Positions 2,507-26,215 of a DNA stretch of 64,000 nt are shown here, one piece after another. A program made the translations under genes and the position numbers. Each line of letters begins with the position of its first letter. The stretch's first letter is position 1. The stretch comes from an uncultured Gammaproteobacteria bacterium (GTDB taxonomy: Bacteria; Pseudomonadota; Gammaproteobacteria; PS1; Pseudothioglobaceae). The stretch is taken from the NCBI GenBank assembly GCA_913020715.1, contig CAJVZH010000002.1, forward strand, positions 62,001-126,000, in the 5' to 3' direction. Under the pieces are notes generated by a model that saw only the letters and a program-made list of their open reading frames with translations, was not told the DNA's origin and searched no databases.

Positions 2507-3244
2507 ATGGAGTTTTCAACACTACAATTTGCGTTTGTTTTATTAATCTTTTGCTGGACAGGTTTTGTTCGTACAGGTTTTGGTTTTGGGGGTGCGGCCT
2601 TAGGTTTGCCTTTTATGCTTTTGGTGGCTGGCTCGCCAATTGACTGGTTGCCAATCATCGGTCTACATCTACTGTTTTTTTCTGGGTTATCTCTTGCTAA
2701 GGCATTAAAGCAGGTTGACTGGAAATATTTTAAAAAATCACTGCGCTGGATTTTGCCCGCCAAAATAGTTGGCGTTATTGGTCTTTTAAGCCTCCCCCCA
2801 AATGTTATGACGGTGATTGTTTATTCAATCACCAGTTTCTACGCTCTAACTTGGCTACTTAATTACAGCATTAGTTCTAACAAAAACTGGCTTGATAATG
2901 TTCTGTTGGTTTTAGGTGGATATATTTCCGGCACTTCTTTGACGGGTGCGCCACTGATTGTTGCAGTCTACATGCGTAAGATTGCCAAAGAGCAGCTCAG
3001 AAACACACTGTTCGTTTTGTGGTTTTTCTTGGTTAGTATAAAAATGGGCGCTTTTGTAGCAGTTGACATTCATATTGATTGGCAATATGCCTTAATGCTA
3101 CTTCCTGCAGCTGGTGTGGGTCATTATTTTGGCTTGAAGGTGCACGCTAAATTGATGGAGAACGATCAACAATTTAAGCGCTGGCTTGGTGGCGGGCTAC
3201 TTATCGTTTGTGCGATTGGAATGACTAAACTGTATTTGGGTTAA
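2507..3244 (+). CDS. TauE/SafE family membrane protein (putative sulfite/organosulfonate exporter)
   Basis: A 245-residue protein with about seven or eight membrane segments. The N-terminal helix with GFVRTGFGFGGAALGLPFML, and the second related half beginning near GGYISGTSLTGAPLI, are the two-fold repeat typical of the TauE/SafE (DUF81) family, members of which move sulfite, sulfoacetate or related anions across the inner membrane. The ATG at 2507 has GAGGG about five bases upstream. The gene meets the convergent Lrp-type regulator end to end (stop codons adjacent at 3244/3245) and lies close to sulfite reductase, which makes a sulfur anion a reasonable but unproven substrate. Confidence 0.85.
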   Translation: MEFSTLQFAFVLLIFCWTGFVRTGFGFGGAALGLPFMLLVAGSPIDWLPIIGLHLLFFSGLSLAKALKQVDWKYFKKSLRWILPAKIVGVIGLLSLPPNVMTVIVYSITSFYALTWLLNYSISSNKNWLDNVLLVLGGYISGTSLTGAPLIVAVYMRKIAKEQLRNTLFVLWFFLVSIKMGAFVAVDIHIDWQYALMLLPAAGVGHYFGLKVHAKLMENDQQFKRWLGGGLLIVCAIGMTKLYLG

Positions 3245-3703
3245 TTATTGATTATCCAGTGGTAGCTCTGTGGTGAACTTGATTTCTTCAATGGCAAAAT
3301 TTGAAGTCACCTTGAGAAACGGCACTTGTTCGATTAAACGCTTATAAAAGCCATCATAACTGTCAATATCGCCGACAATCACCTTGAGTAGGTAGTCGAT
3401 CTCACCGCTCATGCGGTAGCACTCAAGAACCTCTGGGAAATCTTTAATTGTTTCCGCGAAAATTTTGATTTTCTCTTGATCGTGAGTGTTGATAGTTACG
3501 AACACAATGGCGGTGACATTGAGTCCTGCGCGCTTGCGATTAATCAAAGAAACCGTCTTATTAATAAAGCCCAGTTTTTTTAGTTGATTGATTCGCTTCC
3601 AGCAAGGCGTGGTTGATAAATGCACCTCCTTAGATAGCTGCTGCACGGTCATCTCGGCATTTTTTTGCAGTAAATCCAGTAGTTTTCTATCGATTGCATC
3701 CAT
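3245..3703 (-). CDS. Lrp/AsnC family transcriptional regulator
   Basis: A 152-residue protein with an N-terminal winged helix-turn-helix (MDAIDRKLLDLLQKNAEMTVQQLSKEV..STTPCWKRINQLKKLGFI, about residues 1-50) and a C-terminal RAM/AsnC effector domain (about 65-145, with the CYRMSGEIDYLLKV strand). Such proteins bind amino acids or similar small molecules and form octamers on DNA. It is divergent from cysI, with 145 bases between the start codons, and convergent with the TauE-type gene. Control of itself and of cysI or the exporter is a likely but inferred role; the intergenic direct repeats at 3736-3788 are candidate sites. Confidence 0.92.
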   Translation of the reverse strand: MDAIDRKLLDLLQKNAEMTVQQLSKEVHLSTTPCWKRINQLKKLGFINKTVSLINRKRAGLNVTAIVFVTINTHDQEKIKIFAETIKDFPEVLECYRMSGEIDYLLKVIVGDIDSYDGFYKRLIEQVPFLKVTSNFAIEEIKFTTELPLDNQ

Positions 3704-3735
3704 ATTCTATCCCGAAAAAAAGCTAATAATGAAAT

Positions 3736-3788
3736 TTTTTTCTATAATTTGCGAGTATACCAGTATATAAGTATTATTTTTTCTATAA
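3736..3788. repeat. Pair of 12-bp direct repeats between lrp-type gene and cysI
   Basis: TTTTTTCTATAA occurs at 3736-3747 and again at 3777-3788, 41 bases apart, close to four helical turns, in a very AT-rich divergent promoter region. The spacing puts both copies on the same face of the helix, as expected for a multimeric regulator of the Lrp type. A TATAAT at 3814-3819 may be the cysI -10. Direct observation for the repeat; the role is inferred. Confidence 0.5.
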
Positions 3789-3848
3789 ATGTGTAATATG
3801 TAGCATATGATACTATAATTGTTGGTATATCTTATTTGAGTGAATCTT

Positions 3849-5486
3849 ATGTACCAATACAATGCAGATGACACGGCTTTTTTAGTTGAGCGTGTTGATC
3901 AATTTGAGAAACAGTTAAAACGTTATTTAGCGGGCGATTTAGATGCGCTCAAATTCAGAAGCCTTCGTCTCAGAAATGGCCTCTACATGGAGTTGCATGC
4001 CCACATGTTGCGTGTGGCAATCCCTTACGGCATACTTAATACTGAGCAACTCAGAGCTTTGGCTGATGTGGCCGATAAGTACGACCGTGGCTTTGGTCAT
4101 TTCACGACCAGACAAAATATTCAATACAATTGGATTGAGCTGCCTGAAATTGCTAATTTATTGCGCGATCTTTCTGCAGTGGGATTACACGCTATTCAAA
4201 CTAGTGGCAAGGCAATGCGTAATATTACCGCGGACCCTTTCTCAGGCTTAACTGAAGATGAAGTGGAAGATGCGAGACCTTATTGTGAACTTGTTCGACG
4301 TTGGTTTAACATCCATCCAGAATTTTCGTGGCTGCCAAGTAAGTTTAAAATGGCCATTAATGGCGCGAAGTTAGATGAAACTGCGCTGCAAATTCACGAT
4401 CTTGGACTGAAAATCGTGAAAAACGATGCGGGCGAATTAGGCTTTGCAAGTTATGTTGGTGGCGGCCTTGGCGCTGCGCCAATGGTGGGTCCAGAAATTC
4501 ACCCATTTGTTCCGGTCGAAGATATTCTTAGTTACCTTGAGTCGGTTCTTAGGATTTACAATCTAAAAGGGCGTAGAGATAACCTTAAGCGCCTGCGTAT
4601 TAAGTTCTTGGTTCGTGAGCACGGTGCTGCAGAATTCGCAAAAATGGTCGATGAAGACTGGCAACACGGCAAAGACGATCCGGAATTAAAACTCAACATG
4701 GAAGAGCTGGCAAAATTAAAACAAGATTTTGCTCTACCTGTAAAACCACTAGATTTAGGCGACTTTAAAGACACTCTAGACATTAATTACAGTATTTGGA
4801 AAACGAACAATGTTAGGGCGCATAAGATAGCGGGTTACAGTGTAGTAAATATTTCCCTAACGCAACTTGGTACAGCCCCAGGTGATGCGACTTCTGGACA
4901 AATGAGAATGATTGCCGATTTGGCGGATAAGTACTCTAATTCAGAATTAAGAACGACAAAACGTCAAAACCTTGTATTTCCTTATGTAAGGAAAGATCAG
5001 GTGCATGCGTTGTGGCAGGATCTGGATAAAAGTGATTTGGCCAGTCCACACCACGGCACGTTGGCCCACGTTGTGGCCTGTCCAGGCGCAGATTATTGCG
5101 ATTTGGCTAAGGCAGTATCTATTCCAATCGCACAGCAAGTTCAACAGCGTTTTGATGATATGGACAAGTTATACGATATTGGCCCAATTAATATCAATAT
5201 TTCGGGCTGTGAAAATTCATGCGGCCATCACCATATTGCCGATATTGGGCTTTTGGGCCTGAAAAAGAACGAGCAAGAGTTTTATCAAATTACACTCGCC
5301 GGTGAAACACTGCAAGAAACGATTATCGGTAGGAAGCTTGGACGTTCAATTGCTGGCGCTGAAGTGGTCGATGCGATTGAAGACATTGTCAATATTTACC
5401 TAGAAAATAGAGAAGAGGGTGAAAACTTTGTTGACGCTTTTAAGCGCATTGGTATTGCCCCGTTTAAGGAGAAGGTCTATGGTTGA
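3849..5486 (+). CDS. cysI: Assimilatory nitrite/sulfite reductase hemoprotein (CysI type)
   Basis: Reduces sulfite to sulfide with six electrons using siroheme coupled to a [4Fe-4S] cluster; cytoplasmic. The 545-residue protein aligns along its length with the Pseudomonas-type CysI. The four cluster/siroheme cysteines are present as CPGADYC (C411, C417) and GCENSC (C454, C458). I chose ATG 3849, which has GAG eight bases upstream, over the in-frame GTG at 3840. No CysJ flavoprotein is seen; this subtype normally takes electrons from ferredoxin or another donor. It overlaps the DUF934 gene by 8 bases, the usual arrangement for this CysI type. Nitrite reduction is the alternative, but the context favours sulfite. 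Confidence 0.93.
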   Translation: MYQYNADDTAFLVERVDQFEKQLKRYLAGDLDALKFRSLRLRNGLYMELHAHMLRVAIPYGILNTEQLRALADVADKYDRGFGHFTTRQNIQYNWIELPEIANLLRDLSAVGLHAIQTSGKAMRNITADPFSGLTEDEVEDARPYCELVRRWFNIHPEFSWLPSKFKMAINGAKLDETALQIHDLGLKIVKNDAGELGFASYVGGGLGAAPMVGPEIHPFVPVEDILSYLESVLRIYNLKGRRDNLKRLRIKFLVREHGAAEFAKMVDEDWQHGKDDPELKLNMEELAKLKQDFALPVKPLDLGDFKDTLDINYSIWKTNNVRAHKIAGYSVVNISLTQLGTAPGDATSGQMRMIADLADKYSNSELRTTKRQNLVFPYVRKDQVHALWQDLDKSDLASPHHGTLAHVVACPGADYCDLAKAVSIPIAQQVQQRFDDMDKLYDIGPININISGCENSCGHHHIADIGLLGLKKNEQEFYQITLAGETLQETIIGRKLGRSIAGAEVVDAIEDIVNIYLENREEGENFVDAFKRIGIAPFKEKVYG

Positions 5487-5919
5487 AGATAGCGAGATTA
5501 TTAGTGTTGTCAATGAACAGGGTAAGGTTATCGAATTGCTAAGTGTGAATGAATGGGTTGCTAATGTTGATAGCGGCGTCAAGTCGGGCAAAGGCGTTGT
5601 TGTTACACCGGCAGATGATGTTGGATTATTGCAGGAGAGTCTGCATAAAATTCCATTAATTGCGTTGGATTTTGTTAGCTTTGACGATGGTCGTGGCTAT
5701 TCTCAGGCGACATTGATCCGCAAAAGGTGGAGTTATAGCGGCGAAATTCGTGGCATTAATGCGCACCTTGATCAGTTGCAATTTATGCTGAGATCGGGTG
5801 TTAATACTTACGACTTGCAAGAGCAATACCAAGGCTCTAATGAGCATGATTATACGCATGGCTTTAGTATTTGTTACCAAGTGGCAGCAAATAACGCCGA
5901 TATGAAAGAGAAGTTTTAG
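5479..5919 (+). CDS. DUF934 family protein (CysI partner)
   Basis: A 146-residue protein beginning MVEDSEIISVVNEQGK, of the DUF934 family (COG3749), whose members sit directly after the siroheme sulfite/nitrite reductase in many proteobacteria and are thought to help it, possibly in electron delivery or assembly; the molecular role is not established. Conserved features are the FDDGRGYSQATLIRKRW block and the REI RGINAHLDQLQFMLRSG-like C-terminal part. The ATG at 5479 has a strong AAGGAGAAGG ribosome site and lies inside the end of cysI, so the two are translationally coupled. Confidence 0.88.
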   Translation: MVEDSEIISVVNEQGKVIELLSVNEWVANVDSGVKSGKGVVVTPADDVGLLQESLHKIPLIALDFVSFDDGRGYSQATLIRKRWSYSGEIRGINAHLDQLQFMLRSGVNTYDLQEQYQGSNEHDYTHGFSICYQVAANNADMKEKF

Positions 5920-6780: not shown

Positions 6781-7323
6781 ATGATTGACGCGGTTTCTAT
6801 ACTCTCTATATTGGCACTTGTCTTGGGTCTTGTGCTCGGCTATGCTGCAATTCGCTACAGGGTAGAAGGTAACCCCTTGGTCGATCAAATTGATGCCATT
6901 TTGCCGCAAACTCAATGCGGCCAGTGTGATTTCCCGGGCTGTCGCCCTTACGCTGAAGCAATTGCCAGTGGCGAGGCTGAAATAAATCAGTGCCCACCCG
7001 GCGGCCAAGACGGTGTTGACGCTTTAGCGGAACTATTGGACGTGGAAACCTTGCTCCTAAATGCAGAGCACGGTGAAACTAAGCCAAAGCGAATTGCCGT
7101 GGTTGACGAGCAAGTTTGCATCGGCTGCACACTCTGTATTCAAGCTTGTCCAGTGGATGCTTTTGTTGGCTCCTCTAAGGTGATGACGCAGGTGATTGCC
7201 GCTGAATGCACTGGCTGTGATCTGTGTTTGCCGGTTTGTCCGGTGGATTGTATTGACATGGTTGAAGTAAAGCCGACGCTGAATACTTTTGTGCCTAATG
7301 TTGGAGAGTTGGCGAGTGTCTAA
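6781..7323 (+). CDS. rnfB: Rnf complex iron-sulfur subunit B
   Basis: A 180-residue electron-transfer subunit: an N-terminal membrane anchor (about residues 5-25), a single [4Fe-4S] domain with CGQCDFPGC and a following C in NQCPPGG, and two ferredoxin-type clusters [12 protein letters not shown] and [12 protein letters not shown]. Passes electrons between ferredoxin or RnfC and the membrane subunits. Starts 9 bases after rnfA and overlaps the rnfC start by 8 bases. Confidence 0.96.
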
Positions 7324-8833
7324 GTTTACGTTTAAAGGTGGCCTTGTACTCGAAAATCCTTTTCCTGCTAAGGAGATTGACCTTATTCGTATTCCTTTAC
7401 CAGACAAGGTTGTATTGCCCATGCAGCAAAGAATTGGCGAGCAGGCCAAGCCGTGCGTTAGTGTGGGTGAACATGTGTTGACAGGTCAAGTAATTGCCAC
7501 TATTGATGACGATCGTTGTGCGCCAGTGCACGCTTCGATTTCCGGCACTGTTGTCGCAATTGACAACCAAGTAATGGCCCATCAATCGGGCCTCAAAGCT
7601 CTTTGCGTTACCATTGAGTCCGATGGTGAAGATGAATGGATAGATAACTCTGTCGCTTGTACTGAGAATTACGACTTTTGTACACCGGACACCATTTATA
7701 ACAAAATCCGCCTCTCGGGCATTGTTGGCATGGGTGGCGCGGGTTTTCCGACGCACACCAAAGTGCAATTTGCCGAAGGTTGTCACACGTTAATTGTCAA
7801 CGCTACAGAGTGTGAGCCGGGCATTATGTGCGATGACGCCCTAATGCAGGCTTATCCTACCAAGGTTATTCGAGGTGTGGAAGTGTTGCTGCATATTTGT
7901 GGCGCTGAAAAAGCCATCATCGCCATTGAGGACGATAAAAAAGAGTCCATCAAACTGCTTAAGAAGTTTTGCAAGAATGAGCGAATTACCATTGAGGCGA
8001 TACCGACTAAATACACTTCGGGCGCTGAAAAAATATTAGTAAAATCGCTGCTAGGTATTGAAATTCCATCCGGTGGGTACGCCTCCGATGTTGGCGTTCT
8101 TTGTCAAAATGTAGGAACATTGGTTGCTATCTTTGATGCTGTGGTTGAAAACAGGCCGCTTATTTCTCGTGTTGTTACGGTTACTGGAAGCGCCATCAAA
8201 GAGCCAAAAAATCTCCAAGTAAGACTGGGTGCAAGTTACGACTATGTTCTCGGTTTTGCTGACATTGACCCAGGGGAAAACGATATTCGCATGGCAGGAA
8301 TGATGATGGGTGTCGATCTTAAAGGTACAGATTACTCCATCAGCAAAAACACCAATTGTATTTTTGTTAATAAACCGATTGAAAAAGCCGCTGCACAAGA
8401 ATGTATACGTTGCGGCATGTGCAATACTGTTTGTCCGATGGAATTACTACCACAACAACTGTATTGGTATTCTAAGAGCTCGAATATTGAAAAGGCCTTG
8501 GATTATAATTTGTTGGATTGTATAGAGTGCGGCTGTTGTTCGCACGTTTGTCCGAGCAACATTCCATTGGTTGATTATTATCAGTTTGCCAAGGCGTTGA
8601 ATAGACAGCAAACCAAGGAAAAAGTACAGACAGACAACGCCAGAGAGCGTTTTGAATTTCGCGAATTTCGTCTCGAAAGAAATAAACAAGAGCGCGCGGA
8701 AATGATGGAAGCGAAGAAAAAAGCGCTAAAGGAAAAAATGGCAAAAGACAAGGTGCAAAAAGAAGCCATTGCGGCAGCTCAAGAGCGCGTGAATGCGGCC
8801 AAAACTGCAAAGGAGTTAGAAGATGCGAGATAA
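7316..8833 (+). CDS. rnfC: Rnf complex NADH-binding subunit C
   Basis: A 505-residue peripheral subunit that binds FMN and NADH. It has an N-terminal lipoyl-like domain, a Rossmann-type flavin/NADH region with [13 protein letters not shown], and two ferredoxin motifs [12 protein letters not shown] and [12 protein letters not shown]. The C-terminal 75 or so residues are a charged K/E/A-rich helix, much shorter than the long repetitive tail of E. coli RsxC (740 residues). I place the start at GTG 7316 ([14 protein letters not shown]), preceded by GGAGAG with seven bases' spacing and overlapping the rnfB stop; an upstream in-frame ATG at 7289 would add nine unlikely residues. Confidence 0.94.
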
Positions 8834-20256: not shown

Positions 20257-22212
20257 CTATTTAGTTAATGTGTGCAAGCCACATTCCCTGCCAGAATCAA
20301 CCTTGGTTGGGTCGAAGTAACGAGTCTCATCAGGCAGACCATGCTTTTCAAGATAAGCCTGCATATCTTTGAGTGTCCAGTCCAGTAGTGGTGACACTTT
20401 GATAACATTGTTTGGACCAAGGGTAACAGTACTCATCTCTTGACGGAAGGCTGTTTGTTCTCGTCTAACCGCTGTCAACCATACGCTTGCATTGATTTCT
20501 TTCATGCCGCGTAAGAATGGCTCAATCTTAAATTGATAAGTAAATGCTTCGTGGGTAGGATCATCAACTATGGGAATACCCCCCATAACAGCGTCGCGTC
20601 TAGCGGCACTTACAGTCGGGGTGTACACCTTAAGGTTAAGGTTAAGGTGTGTTGTTACTGCGTCTGCAAATTTATACGTTTGCGACATGTTGTAGCCGGA
20701 GTCCACCCAAAGCACTTCTGTTTCTGGCGCTATCTGACTAACCATGCTCAATAGTACAGCCTCCTGAGGGCCAAAATTTGTTGTTACAACAGCCTTGCCA
20801 TCTAACTCCAACGCCCATTTCACTATGTTCTCCGCACTAGCGCCCTTTAAGTCCTTGTTGGCCACTTCAAGGTTAGGCCCTGAATGATTGTGGTCAATCA
20901 AGTCTGCCTGCTGTGCACTGATCATACCTGCAGCGACAGTGGCATTTGTGATTCTATCGATGAGGATAAACGCACCTAAACCCTGGTTGTTTTTGAATTT
21001 CTCAACAGGCAACAGAGCATCTAGTTGAATATCCGCAAGGGCAATTTCATTTAGGCCTAACCCATCTGCATCAACCGTTGCCATAGTGTTTACATCGATG
21101 CGATGGTGGAGTAGCTCAACACGTGCATTGATGCTTCGAGGTCCCAGTCTGAGTTCGTAGTCGTGGCCTAACTGTAGAGGCTTTTGATCCATCCACACGA
21201 GGTGAGATCTAAGTTTCTGTTGGTTTTTTACTGATAAATTTTTATCTTTATGAACCAGTAAATCACCTCTAGAAATATCCACCTCATTCGTCAGTGTAAG
21301 CGTGATGGCCATCCCGCTATAAGCACGTGTTAGATCACCATCATGCGAGATAACACGATCAACAGTTGTATTTACTCCACTTGGTAGAACGGTTATTGGA
21401 TCACCTGGAGCAACACTTCCTTGGTTAAGAGTACCACTATAGCCTCGGAAATCGGCGTTGGGTCTATTAACATATTGGACAGGCAATTGAAACCCTCCTT
21501 TTATTTCTTTTGTTTCTATCTCGACTTCTTCAAGAAATGGCAAAAGCGCCTTACCTGCGTACCAGGGCATTTTTTCAGAGTAATTAACAACGTTGTCACC
21601 CTTGAGTGCTGAGATGGGTATAAATTTTATCTTTGTTAAATTAAGATCTTTTGCAAAACGCAGGTAATCACTCTTGATTGAGTCGTATATATCCTTACTG
21701 TAGTCGACCAAGTCCATTTTATTAACAGCTACAACAACTTGCTTTAGACCTAATAACGACACCAAAAAAGAATGACGTTTTGTTTGCGTTGTTAAACCTT
21801 TTCTAGCATCAATTAAGATAATTGCCAAATCTGAGTTGGAGGCGCCGGTCACCATATTTCGAGTGTATTGCTCATGACCCGGTGTGTCGGCAACAATAAA
21901 CTTGCGCTTAGATGTTGAAAAGTATCGGTAAGCAACATCTATAGTGATGCCTTGTTCGCGTTCTGCTTCTAAGCCATCCACCAGAAGTGCCAGATTAAAT
22001 TCCTCGCCATCTGAGGAATTTTTGGTGTTGTTTTTGATGGCTGCCAGTTGATCTTCATAGACCAATTTGGAGTCATGCAGAAGGCGCCCGATTAGTGTAG
22101 ATTTGCCATCATCCACACTTCCCGAGGTCAGTAGTTTCAGTAATGTTTTGTTTTCATGCGTATCTAGATACGCATGAATGTCTTGCTTTATTAGTTCGTC
22201 AGTGTGGCTCAT
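20257..22212 (-). CDS. cysN: Fusion of sulfate adenylyltransferase large subunit (CysN) and a CysH-like (P)APS reductase domain
   Basis: A 651-residue protein. Residues about 1-430 are CysN, the GTPase subunit of ATP sulfurylase: G1 GSVDDGKST, G3 DTPGHEQY, G4 NKMDL, and the closing FILIDRITNATVAAGMI. Instead of the APS kinase (CysC) often fused to CysN, residues about 441-651 match CysH: VTTNFGPQEAVLL (phosphosulfate-binding loop), KIEPFLRGM, RREQTAFR and the catalytic Cys644 in RECGLHT. The CC and CxxC pairs that hold the [4Fe-4S] cluster of APS reductases are absent, and the loop before ECGLH is about 20 residues shorter than in E. coli CysH. So the sequence resembles cluster-free PAPS reductases although no kinase is seen nearby. 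Overlaps cysD by one base. Confidence 0.93.
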   Translation of the reverse strand: MSHTDELIKQDIHAYLDTHENKTLLKLLTSGSVDDGKSTLIGRLLHDSKLVYEDQLAAIKNNTKNSSDGEEFNLALLVDGLEAEREQGITIDVAYRYFSTSKRKFIVADTPGHEQYTRNMVTGASNSDLAIILIDARKGLTTQTKRHSFLVSLLGLKQVVVAVNKMDLVDYSKDIYDSIKSDYLRFAKDLNLTKIKFIPISALKGDNVVNYSEKMPWYAGKALLPFLEEVEIETKEIKGGFQLPVQYVNRPNADFRGYSGTLNQGSVAPGDPITVLPSGVNTTVDRVISHDGDLTRAYSGMAITLTLTNEVDISRGDLLVHKDKNLSVKNQQKLRSHLVWMDQKPLQLGHDYELRLGPRSINARVELLHHRIDVNTMATVDADGLGLNEIALADIQLDALLPVEKFKNNQGLGAFILIDRITNATVAAGMISAQQADLIDHNHSGPNLEVANKDLKGASAENIVKWALELDGKAVVTTNFGPQEAVLLSMVSQIAPETEVLWVDSGYNMSQTYKFADAVTTHLNLNLKVYTPTVSAARRDAVMGGIPIVDDPTHEAFTYQFKIEPFLRGMKEINASVWLTAVRREQTAFRQEMSTVTLGPNNVIKVSPLLDWTLKDMQAYLEKHGLPDETRYFDPTKVDSGRECGLHTLTK

Positions 22213-23129
22213 TAAAAGTACCCCTGTGCTTTTTTTGCTTCCATGGATCCGGCCTGATCAGAATCGATTAGCCGACCTTGTCTTTCGGATGTTTTTGTTA
22301 GAAGCATTTCTTGAATAATATCGGTTAGAGTTGTCGCTTTGGACTCAATTGCGCCCGTTAATGGGTAACAGCCAAGAGTTCGGAAACGCACCCATTCTTC
22401 TGCAGGGGTTTCACCAGACTCAAGTTTCATGCGCTCATCATCGACCATGATTTTGACGCCGTCACGCTCAACTACCGGTCTTGGGGCTGCGTAATACAGG
22501 GGTACGATTTCAATTTTTTCGAGGTAAATATACTGCCAAATATCTAGCTCTGTCCAATTGGAAATTGGGAATACTCGAATACTCTCACCCTTTTTAATGC
22601 GTGCGTTGTATAGATTCCAAAGTTCAGGTCTTTGGTTTTTTGGGTCCCAGCGGTGTTGCTCAGAGCGAAATGAAAATATGCGCTCCTTTGCACGTGATGC
22701 CTCTTCATCGCGTCTTGCGCCGCCAAAGGCGGCATCAAAGCCGTGTTGATCCAGCGCCTGCTTAAGACCTTGCGTCTTCATCACGTCGGTATGAACTTTT
22801 GACCCGTGGGTGAATGGACTAATATTCATCGCCACGCCTTCGGGGTTAATGTGAGTAATTAGATCCATGCCGGATTCTTTTGCCACTTTATTTCGGAATT
22901 CGATCATTTCACGAAATTTCCAAGTGGTGTCCACATGCAATAATGGAAACGGCGGTATTGCAGGAAAGAATGCTTTCTTTGCTAAGTGCAGCATGACAGA
23001 TGAGTCTTTACCAATAGAATACAGCATTGCAGGGTTATTAAATTCAGCGGCCACTTCTCTAAAGATATGGATGCTTTCTGCCTCAAGTTGTCGTAAATGG
23101 CTCAGTTTATGTTCTGATAATAGGCTCAT
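22212..23129 (-). CDS. cysD: Sulfate adenylyltransferase small subunit
   Basis: A 305-residue subunit that adenylates sulfate to APS, in complex with CysN. Contains the ATP-pyrophosphatase loop as [35 protein letters not shown] and [13 protein letters not shown]. First gene of the operon; its stop codon shares one base with the start of the fused cysN. A TATAAT on the minus strand at 23191-23186 with a poor -35 and very AT-rich upstream DNA is in line with an activator-dependent (CysB-like) promoter, though no site can be proven. Confidence 0.96.
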
Positions 23130-24421: not shown

Positions 24422-26215
24422 ATGTTTGCACCCTCAATGAATAGAATAGCAAAACTCTTTCCCTTTTTGGTTTGGTTTAGATTGGTTACCAAGGACACTT
24501 TGCGTGCTGATTTTTATGCCGGTCTAACAGGTGCAATCATCGTACTACCACAGGGCGTAGCTTTTGCAACGATTGCTGGTATGCCACCGGAATATGGCCT
24601 TTATACAGCAATGGTTGTACCTATTATTGCAGCCTTGTTTGGCTCGTCTCATCATCTTGTTTCTGGCCCGACAACAGCAATCTCAATCGTTGTTTTTTCG
24701 GCGGTTAGCCAGCACGCGGTGATTGGTAGTGAGGAGTTTGTGGCGATGGCATTGACCTTAACTTTTTTGGCGGGTGTTTATCAACTCGCATTTGGTTTGG
24801 CGAAGTTTGGTATGTTGGTGAACTTTGTTTCACACAATGTGGTGATTGGTTTTACCGCCGGCGCAGCCTTGTTAATTGCCACGAGTCAAATACCTCATAT
24901 GCTGGGCGTTGAGGTTTTTAGGGGTTTGAGTTTTTATGATACTTGGAGTGCGATTTTCGATAGTATTGGCGGGTTAAGAGATGGGCCGAGAGAGGGGATA
25001 GCTGCTCTTAAATCTTGGGATTCGATTCTTGTTCTTACTGTGGGCTTAAGTACACTTTTTAGCGCTATTTTGGTTAAGTTTTATAAGCCGAGATATCCCA
25101 ATTTATTAATAGGAATGTTTGTTGGTGGTATTGTTGCTGTTCTTTTGAGCGGGCAAACTAGCGCCATTAAAACTGTTGGTGAAATTCCAGCTTTGTTGCC
25201 ACCTTTTTCCATGCCAAACTTTTCACTAAACACCTTGAGATCATTGGCGCCAGAAGCATTTGCTATTGCACTTTTGGGGTTAATTGAGGCAGTTTCAATC
25301 AGTCGCTCGGTGGCGACAAAGTCGTATCAGCGAATCAAGCCAAGTCAAGAATTTGTTGGCCAAGGCTTGTCAAATATTGTTGGTAGCTTTTTCTCAAGCT
25401 ACGCATCCTCTGGCTCGTTCACTCGTACGGGTGTTAACTATGAGGCGGGCGCGAAAACCCCGCTTTCTGCTATATTTGCGGCAATGATATTGGTGCTTAT
25501 TGTGCTTTTGGTTGCGCCATTGATGAAGTATTTACCACTGGCCGCAATGGCCGGCGTTATTTTATTGGTGGCTTATAATTTGATTGACTTTAAGCACATC
25601 AAAAAAACATTTAAATTTTCCAAGTCAGAAGCCTCGATTTTCCTCGTCACCTTTCTCTCGACTTTATTATTGGAGTTGGAGTTTGCAATTTACTTGGGTG
25701 TACTACTCTCGCTGATGTTATTTATTGCCAAAACAGCAGCACCTGAAGTCCACACTTTAGCTTTTGAGAATTACCCAGATCAGGACGATCGTAAGTTAAG
25801 ATCCATACGAAGCACTCCTTTAGCTCAATGCCCTCAGTTGAAAATAATCCGAATTGATATGTCTATATATTTTGGCTCGATTAATCACATTCAAAAACAA
25901 ATCAACCAAATTGTTGATAATCAAAGAATTTACCATGTTCTTATCGTTGCAAATGCGGTCAACTTTATCGACCTGGCTGGCGTTGAAGGCTTGTTGGCTG
26001 AGAATCGACGCCTAAAAGAATTGGGTGGTGGCTTATACTTCGTTTCCGTAAAGGCTACGGTTGAGGATTTTTTGAGAAAAGTGCATTTTGTCGAGCAAAT
26101 TGGTGAAGATCATTTCTTTGAATCTAAGGGCGTGGCTATCAATAATATCTACAGCAAGCTCGACATGGCCAAATGCGAAAAATGTCGCGCACTGGTCTTC
26201 AAAGAATGCAACTAA
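24422..26215 (+). CDS. SulP family anion transporter with STAS domain
   Basis: A 597-residue protein: a SulP membrane domain (about residues 20-430; DFYAGLTGAIIVLPQGVAFATIAGMPPEYGLY and the FFSSYASSGSFTRTGVNYEAGAKTPLS segment) and a cytoplasmic STAS domain (about 470-580). SulP carriers move sulfate, bicarbonate or other anions; sulfate is attractive given cysDN upstream. The end carries an extra KCEKCRALVFKEC, a CxxC plus third Cys, not part of the STAS fold. ATG 24422 is chosen; ATG 24437 is an alternative. Confidence 0.9.
   Translation: MFAPSMNRIAKLFPFLVWFRLVTKDTLRADFYAGLTGAIIVLPQGVAFATIAGMPPEYGLYTAMVVPIIAALFGSSHHLVSGPTTAISIVVFSAVSQHAVIGSEEFVAMALTLTFLAGVYQLAFGLAKFGMLVNFVSHNVVIGFTAGAALLIATSQIPHMLGVEVFRGLSFYDTWSAIFDSIGGLRDGPREGIAALKSWDSILVLTVGLSTLFSAILVKFYKPRYPNLLIGMFVGGIVAVLLSGQTSAIKTVGEIPALLPPFSMPNFSLNTLRSLAPEAFAIALLGLIEAVSISRSVATKSYQRIKPSQEFVGQGLSNIVGSFFSSYASSGSFTRTGVNYEAGAKTPLSAIFAAMILVLIVLLVAPLMKYLPLAAMAGVILLVAYNLIDFKHIKKTFKFSKSEASIFLVTFLSTLLLELEFAIYLGVLLSLMLFIAKTAAPEVHTLAFENYPDQDDRKLRSIRSTPLAQCPQLKIIRIDMSIYFGSINHIQKQINQIVDNQRIYHVLIVANAVNFIDLAGVEGLLAENRRLKELGGGLYFVSVKATVEDFLRKVHFVEQIGEDHFFESKGVAINNIYSKLDMAKCEKCRALVFKECN

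Follow-up and report, generated by a model that had tools for sequence, protein, structure and literature searches.

A cysN–cysH fusion gene next to cysD

The window (the whole stretch of 64,000 nucleotides that we analysed) contains on its minus strand one uninterrupted frame of 651 codons (20257..22212), in which a full CysN is followed by a CysH-type reductase; the plus strand across the same interval is full of stops. The first-pass annotation had described this frame and its two halves without naming a strand, and both the frame and the architecture were borne out by Pfam and NCBIfam domains. The CysN half takes up about the first 431 residues (Pfam and two NCBIfam models) and includes the GTPase domain (residues 24–209, 21586..22143, minus strand; PF00009 GTP_EFTU, 146 bits) and the C-terminal beta-barrel domain (residues 335–431, 20920..21210, minus strand; PF22594 GTP-eEF1A_C, 83 bits). 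It is followed by a short variable linker with gapped, poorly conserved columns among the aligned fusions (about residues 432–450, 20863..20919, minus strand; borders estimated) and by a PAPS/APS-reductase-type domain (residues 474–628, 20329..20793, minus strand; PF01507 PAPS_reduct, 102 bits, profile positions 2–156 of 175). According to the alignment and the spacing of motifs, the C-terminal loop LPDETRYFDPTKVDSGR (residues 626–642, 20287..20337, minus strand) is shortened and contains neither CxxC nor the GDxxT segment. The protein ends in RECGLHTLTK, in agreement with the RECGLH reported earlier; the ECGLH motif (residues 643–647, 20272..20286, minus strand) is invariant in two alignments and holds Cys644, the expected catalytic residue judging from the family.

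The fusion passes the curated cut-offs of two CysN models (TIGR02034, 600.4 vs 336.1 bits; NF003478, 644.7 vs 590 bits) and misses that of the CysNC model NF004035 (661 vs 715 bits, with the profile match ending at position 449 of 632). Pfam finds in it no APS kinase domain (PF01583) and no PF01747, and the ATP sulfurylase part consists of the CysN domains.

The gene for the small subunit of sulfate adenylyltransferase, cysD (22212..23129, minus strand; TIGR02039, 515 bits vs a cut-off of 397), overlaps the start of the fusion by one base (TAATG). A SulP-type sulfate permease with a STAS domain is encoded at 24422..26215 on the plus strand (PF00916, 322 bits; PF01740, 53 bits). Further away on the plus strand lie a sulfite/nitrite reductase hemoprotein, probably an assimilatory sulfite reductase (3840..5486; PF01077 and PF03460, two stretches each), whose assignment to sulfite rests on context because it misses the NCBIfam equivalog cut-offs, and a DUF934 gene that overlaps its end (5419..5919; PF06073, 81 bits; the true start is probably later than listed). 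A TauE-type permease lies with these two genes within 2507–5919. The order cysI-DUF934-cysH with a cysH of the type found in the fusion is seen at L127/L206, L133 and L176, which suggests that DUF934 probably belongs to the pathway.

Recurrence of the fusion in other genomes

The window comes from a draft genome in 26 contigs (94.7% complete), so that a sequencing or assembly artefact joining two neighbouring genes had to be considered, as the first-pass annotation had noted. We found the same architecture in 11 other genomes, with an unbroken frame in 10 of them; in the eleventh (L076), the frame is broken only by runs of N in the CysN part and the fusion is seen in one frame over its C-terminal part only. 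Because the unbroken frame recurs in this way, we reject the artefact, which now seems next to impossible. Three of the other genomes are from Ca. Thioglobus (72–78% identity over all 651 residues), and a collection scan gave eight further MAGs titled Oceanospirillaceae (one of them ASP10-02a, which excerpts of PMC10199937 place in Nitrincolaceae), Pseudomonadales or Gammaproteobacteria. In all 21 pairwise comparisons of seven fusions, the nonsynonymous differences amount to 0.07–0.29 per site vs 0.59–0.97 synonymous differences in both halves, with synonymous sites near saturation; both halves of the fusion are under purifying selection.

We also searched collections of phages and plasmids. 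The phage collection contains three matching records, the best only 35% identical, and a phage origin was rejected. Among the plasmid matches listed (20 of 573 records) there is no single-chain fusion. In 8 of the 573 records one place covers at least 80% of the query; two Shinella rows among the matches listed have 94% coverage, each made of two joined pieces and not of one chain.

A clade of short-loop reductases

To place the reductase half, we built a profile from ten short-loop domains and searched it in 369 genomes of the class, where 55 matches were found at E 1e-25 (a threshold that leaves most Fe-S reductases of the class uncounted). Of these, 24 (own genome included, G269 weakly) reach at least position 200 of 205 and form the short-loop group, and 31 stop at position 180–182 and form the long-loop group. 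Only in our genome is the reductase found in a fusion-sized frame among the 55 matches in the 369 genomes. The distance from the core to ECGLH is 21 residues in 20 of 37 short-loop sequences where the pattern matched vs 43 residues in 26 of the 31 long-loop sequences (the other five are unmatched by the pattern), i.e. the short-loop type has a deletion of 22 residues in the C-terminal loop, close to the approximately 20 residues estimated earlier. The Fe-S cysteines are absent from the reductase part of the fusion, as had been claimed (both CC and CxxC are missing), and none of the 37 short-loop sequences contains CC or CxxC. One of the 31 long-loop sequences (G267) is of the Fe-S type; it has CC, although the CC pattern missed it. 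Across 11 aligned fusions there is no variation at the C-terminal Cys or at many core positions, and ECGLQ, ECGLM or ECGLL replaces ECGLH in 6 of the 37 short-loop sequences, all standalone.

The P-loop of the fusion reads VTTNFGPQ, which corresponds to the FGxQ of PAPS reductases. Its glutamine is found in 12/12 fused, 32/33 long-loop and 3/25 standalone short-loop sequences; according to published engineering of these enzymes, the role of the P-loop in specificity is reportedly only modest. Models of PAPS reductases outscore models of APS reductases on the reductase domain, yet all cut-offs are missed (TIGR02057, 140.3 vs 254.2 bits, and NF002537, 140.6 vs 154 bits, for PAPS reductase; TIGR02055, 63.1 vs 235.3 bits, for Fe-S APS reductase). 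APR-B has Y/FxxxxK and GDxxxT/S at the two cysteine positions (PMC2275785); the FTYQFK of the fusion matches the former, but the GDxxxT/S segment is deleted. An AlphaFold model of residues 447–651 has a pLDDT of 86.9, and in this predicted structure the domain is closest to the PAPS reductases of Vibrio and E. coli, with yeast PAPS reductase, moss APR-B and bacterial APS reductases as the next predicted neighbours. The model of the whole fusion (pLDDT 56.5) is too poor for judging domain packing.

In the CysH tree, the short-loop sequences form one clade (100/98) with the long-loop sequences outside; the program warned that the joining of G269 with the latter may be a long-branch effect, and G388, G265 and G087 are also long branches. 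Within the clade, the 12 fused sequences and the standalone G018 group together (99/98), and G018 nests among the fused Thioglobus sequences (97/68), which suggests that it lost its CysN half. The tree leaves out L138, whose frame is interrupted, and L082, which was unused. L138 is a megaplasmid of Halomonas sp. PA16-9 with a short-loop-like cysH in an interrupted frame (approximately 6956–7465). In a CysN tree of 23 sequences (L076 was excluded for the runs of N in its CysN part), the 11 fused CysN parts form one clade (100/99), which is nearer to plain CysN than to the CysNC of the same genomes. The simplest account would be that the genes fused once and that the product was then transferred between distant lineages. 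The reductase type itself also exists outside the fusion: it belongs to a wider gammaproteobacterial clade and is usually standalone.

APS kinase, ATP sulfurylase and CysQ in the genomes

PF01507 has two matches in our genome, CysD and the fusion, so that the whole-genome search for a second cysH returned none at 94.7% completeness. We found no Sat there either, and CysD plus the fusion make up the only ATP sulfurylase found, which fits the two-gene module (cysD, cysN-H) proposed from the window. The earlier statement that the window has no CysC extends to the genome: the sole PF01583 match is weak (21 bits, or 25.8 bits together with the neighbouring matches of its frame). It sits in a 332-aa frame that by eye looks like an FtsY/SRP-type GTPase, and it was rejected as a hidden APS kinase.

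The reductase type is present in 5 of 29 Thioglobus genomes, four with the fusion (G000, which is our own genome, G001, G017 and G026) and one with the standalone gene (G018), all drafts of 89–99% completeness. In all five, PF01583 matches are only weak (about 21 bits, frames of 319–336 aa). Strong APS-kinase matches are found in 0/5 of these genomes vs 15/24 Thioglobus genomes without the reductase (one of the 15, in G009, is interrupted by a stop), and kinase and reductase never occur together. In our genome and these relatives, this distribution lends no support to a separate CysC acting between the two halves, which the first-pass annotation had offered as an alternative; the five kinase-less genomes may trace to a single loss of cysC. 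We note that other Thioglobus members without the reductase have APS-kinase frames of 337–352 residues that resemble a truncated CysNC, and that L036 (1015–2025, plus strand) likewise has an APS kinase behind a stretch like the CysN C-terminal barrel, without a GTPase domain.

Outside the genus, APS kinases were counted at E 1e-10. Among 23 sampled genomes with a standalone short-loop reductase, 19 have CysC (Leucothrix arctica, which has this reductase type, also has CysC) and four have no kinase, including the single-contig G259 and G307. The eight fused Oceanospirillaceae genomes have a full kinase match in four cases (frames of 646–658 residues, confirmed as CysN-CysC in three), a partial one in two and none in two. 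In total, 11 genomes have a short-loop reductase and no kinase match (G000, G001, G017, G026, G018, G259, G307, G390, G265, G408 and G409), and CysD or Sat is present in 11/11; one of them, G265, has a second, Fe-S-type reductase operon besides the short-loop reductase. In the long-loop (mostly PAPS-type) control, 4 of 31 genomes lack a kinase and CysD or Sat is present in 0/4, so that these four have no recognisable pathway. The two clades cannot be told apart by CysC alone (19/23 short-loop vs 27/31 long-loop genomes); they can once the presence of ATP sulfurylase among kinase-less genomes is added. A cysC is found no more than 10 kb from cysH in 0/23 short-loop vs 11/31 long-loop genomes, and CysQ passes its cut-off in 10/23 vs 29/31 genomes, where both comparisons (Fisher) ignore shared ancestry and linkage is bounded by contig ends.

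CysQ clears the PAP produced by PAPS reductases. Homologues above the cut-off are found in our genome (244.5 bits), in the three other fused Thioglobus genomes and in 7/8 fused Oceanospirillaceae genomes. CysQ was tried as a yes/no test of the substrate and failed in Thioglobus, because a homologue is present there regardless. The CysQ-type phosphatase of our genome (G000:C1:221883-222611) scores just above the cut-off; as stated, this genome yielded no APS kinase.

The gene neighborhoods differ among the genomes. The single contig of G259 has the order cysI-DUF934-cysH-cysD-cysN without a kinase; in G307, cysD-cysN lies elsewhere on the contig from the short-loop cysH, also without a kinase. 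Three fused Oceanospirillaceae genomes (L179-L181) keep a separate cysD-cysNC-cysQ operon, which in the two with frames listed adjoins kynurenine genes (by eye), and G408 has a similar region with cysQ but without cysD-cysNC, and keeps cysD-cysNH. Genomes with both CysNC and CysNH suggest that separate sulfurylases serve the PAPS and the reduction branches. In G018 the standalone reductase adjoins sat and aprA; sat is also encoded behind the fusion in G026 and in G017, where the contig end truncates it. The CysD of the cysD-cysNC-cysQ operon lies in a frame of about 505 residues in L179 (5980–7491, plus strand) and L180 (9798–11312, minus strand), which extends at its N-terminal end about 200 residues beyond an ordinary CysD. 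In G173, a 683-residue frame (L199:610-2658, minus strand) couples an APS reductase of the Fe-S type, with both CC and CxxC, to an NAD-dependent epimerase domain. By eye this domain looks like UDP-sulfoquinovose synthase, as though the sulfite were destined for sulfolipids.

Comparison with known systems

CysNC (NodQ type) is similar in that CysN has a C-terminal pathway enzyme and CysD as its partner, and the CysNC model matches residues 1–452 of the fusion; its added enzyme is APS kinase, whereas here it is a reductase. The PAPS reductases CysH of E. coli and Vibrio (1sur, 2o8v, 6vpu) have the same fold, no Fe-S cysteines and the ECGLH tail, with 36–39% identity over about 180–209 columns. 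They differ from the reductase described here, which has the 22-residue loop deletion, falls into the separate clade (100/98) and belongs to a type found in 11 genomes with ATP sulfurylase but no kinase match.

The nearest precedents are eukaryotic. In APR-ATPS fusions, ATP sulfurylase and a sulfonucleotide reductase are likewise joined in one chain, but the reductase is N-terminal to the ATPS domain, whereas here it is C-terminal and follows the GTPase subunit CysN. The ATPS domain of the eukaryotic proteins is Sat-type, not CysDN. These fusions are reported from Heterocapsa, Amphidinium, Chromera and Capsaspora (PMC2275785, PMC4220642, both in excerpt); channelling of APS in them was proposed in the excerpted PMC2275785, and assigning a function to the fusion was called premature in the excerpted PMC4220642. 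APR-B of Physcomitrella (PDB 4bwv) is PAPS-reductase-like and has no Fe-S cysteines, as here, and this cluster-free enzyme is reported to reduce APS (PMC2275785, excerpt). According to the legend of Figure 4 in PMC2275785 (excerpt), sequences that have no cysteine pairs retain GDxxxT/S in the loop, but in the fusion this position is deleted, and the identity to 4bwv is 22% over 191 columns.

Among the literature matches listed, from a search with most subscription literature outside its scope, there is no published account of a bacterial CysN-CysH fusion or of one in Thioglobus, and the excerpts of PMC10322725 and PMC6286981 contain no bacterial precedent. The first-pass annotation knew of no described enzyme with this architecture. 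This holds for a bacterial CysN-CysH in the literature searched, and does not hold for the joining of a sulfurylase to a reductase, which is known from dinoflagellates and some other protists.

A putative two-gene route from sulfate to sulfite

We think it probable that CysD and CysN-CysH form a two-gene sulfate-to-sulfite module in which APS is reduced directly, without an Fe-S cluster or APS kinase, and that the fusion arose once. CysD would make APS from sulfate and ATP, and the GTPase half of the fusion would pull APS formation forward, which is known for CysDN and assumed here. The tethered short-loop reductase half, free of Fe-S cysteines, would then convert APS to sulfite and AMP. Judging from the family, it would act via Cys644 at its C-terminal end and receive electrons from thioredoxin or a comparable donor, and APS kinase would take no part. 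The fusion would have originated in a single event that joined a plain CysN to a reductase of the already existing gammaproteobacterial short-loop clade, and would later have moved between Thioglobus and Oceanospirillaceae/ASP10-02a. We infer APS as the substrate because no APS kinase was found. Physical channelling of APS within the fusion is speculative. The equilibrium of APS formation is unfavourable (PMC2275785, excerpt) and the reaction is product-inhibited (PMC4220642, excerpt), and thus a reductase next to the sulfurylase that consumes APS at once would drive it onward.

Several observations count against APS as the substrate: the PAPS-type P-loop of the fused clade, the CysQ homologues, CysC in 19/23 standalone genomes, in Leucothrix arctica and in four of the eight fused Oceanospirillaceae genomes, PAPS reductases as the nearest structures, the higher scores with PAPS-reductase models (all below cut-off), and the second reductase of G265. 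The P-loop, the nearest structures, the CysQ homologues and the presence of CysC in most short-loop genomes elsewhere also favor an ordinary cluster-free PAPS reductase in the fusion, with PAPS made by an APS kinase that was missed or is of an unknown family and PAP cleared by CysQ. We consider this rather unlikely, since there is no strong kinase match in the five reductase-bearing Thioglobus genomes at 89–99% completeness, the single-contig G259 and G307 have CysD, CysN and the short-loop reductase as their only one, and no kinase, G408 has neither a kinase match nor cysD-cysNC yet keeps cysD-cysNH, and cysC is within 10 kb of a short-loop cysH in none of 23 genomes.

The missing 22 residues of the loop, together with a PF01507 match that ends at position 156 of 175, might also mean that the fused CysH reduces nothing and instead has a structural or regulatory role, sensing APS on behalf of CysDN. 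This is improbable given the invariant C-terminal Cys and core residues in the 11 aligned fusions, the low nonsynonymous change (synonymous sites being near saturation), the equally short loop of standalone enzymes encoded beside cysI, cysD and cysN, and the fact that this is the only reductase found in our genome. We give still less credence to a complex that runs backwards in these sulfur-oxidising bacteria, from sulfite through APS to sulfate and ATP. It could draw on the G018 reductase adjoining sat and aprA of the oxidative pathway, and on G000 and G001 having no Sat match; but the window also encodes the SulP permease and the sulfite-type reductase with DUF934, i.e. an assimilation set, the fusion is also found in Oceanospirillaceae MAGs, and thioredoxin-type reductases are effectively one-way.

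For the direct reduction of APS by CysD and the fusion, a broader version can be put forward that in our view has about an even chance of being right: an undescribed gammaproteobacterial clade of loop-deleted, Fe-S-free reductases would use APS, and in two marine lineages one of them would have joined CysN to form a two-gene sulfate-to-sulfite machine, with APS handed over within the complex and the C-terminus of CysN acting as the docking site for either the kinase (CysNC) or the reductive (CysNH) branch. The fusion and its standalone relatives form a natural set for testing the determinants of specificity, and the same set is suited to asking whether the joining of sulfurylase and reductase overcomes the unfavourable equilibrium of APS formation. 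If the module works as proposed, some marine bacteria would need just two genes to turn sulfate into sulfite, and their genomes yielded no gene for the step that usually lies between. The Fe-S cysteines are the usual guide to the substrate of a sulfonucleotide reductase, APS or PAPS; if the clade uses APS without a cluster, this rule would fail in bacteria as it does in mosses, APS kinase would be unneeded, and pathway predictions for marine lineages would change.
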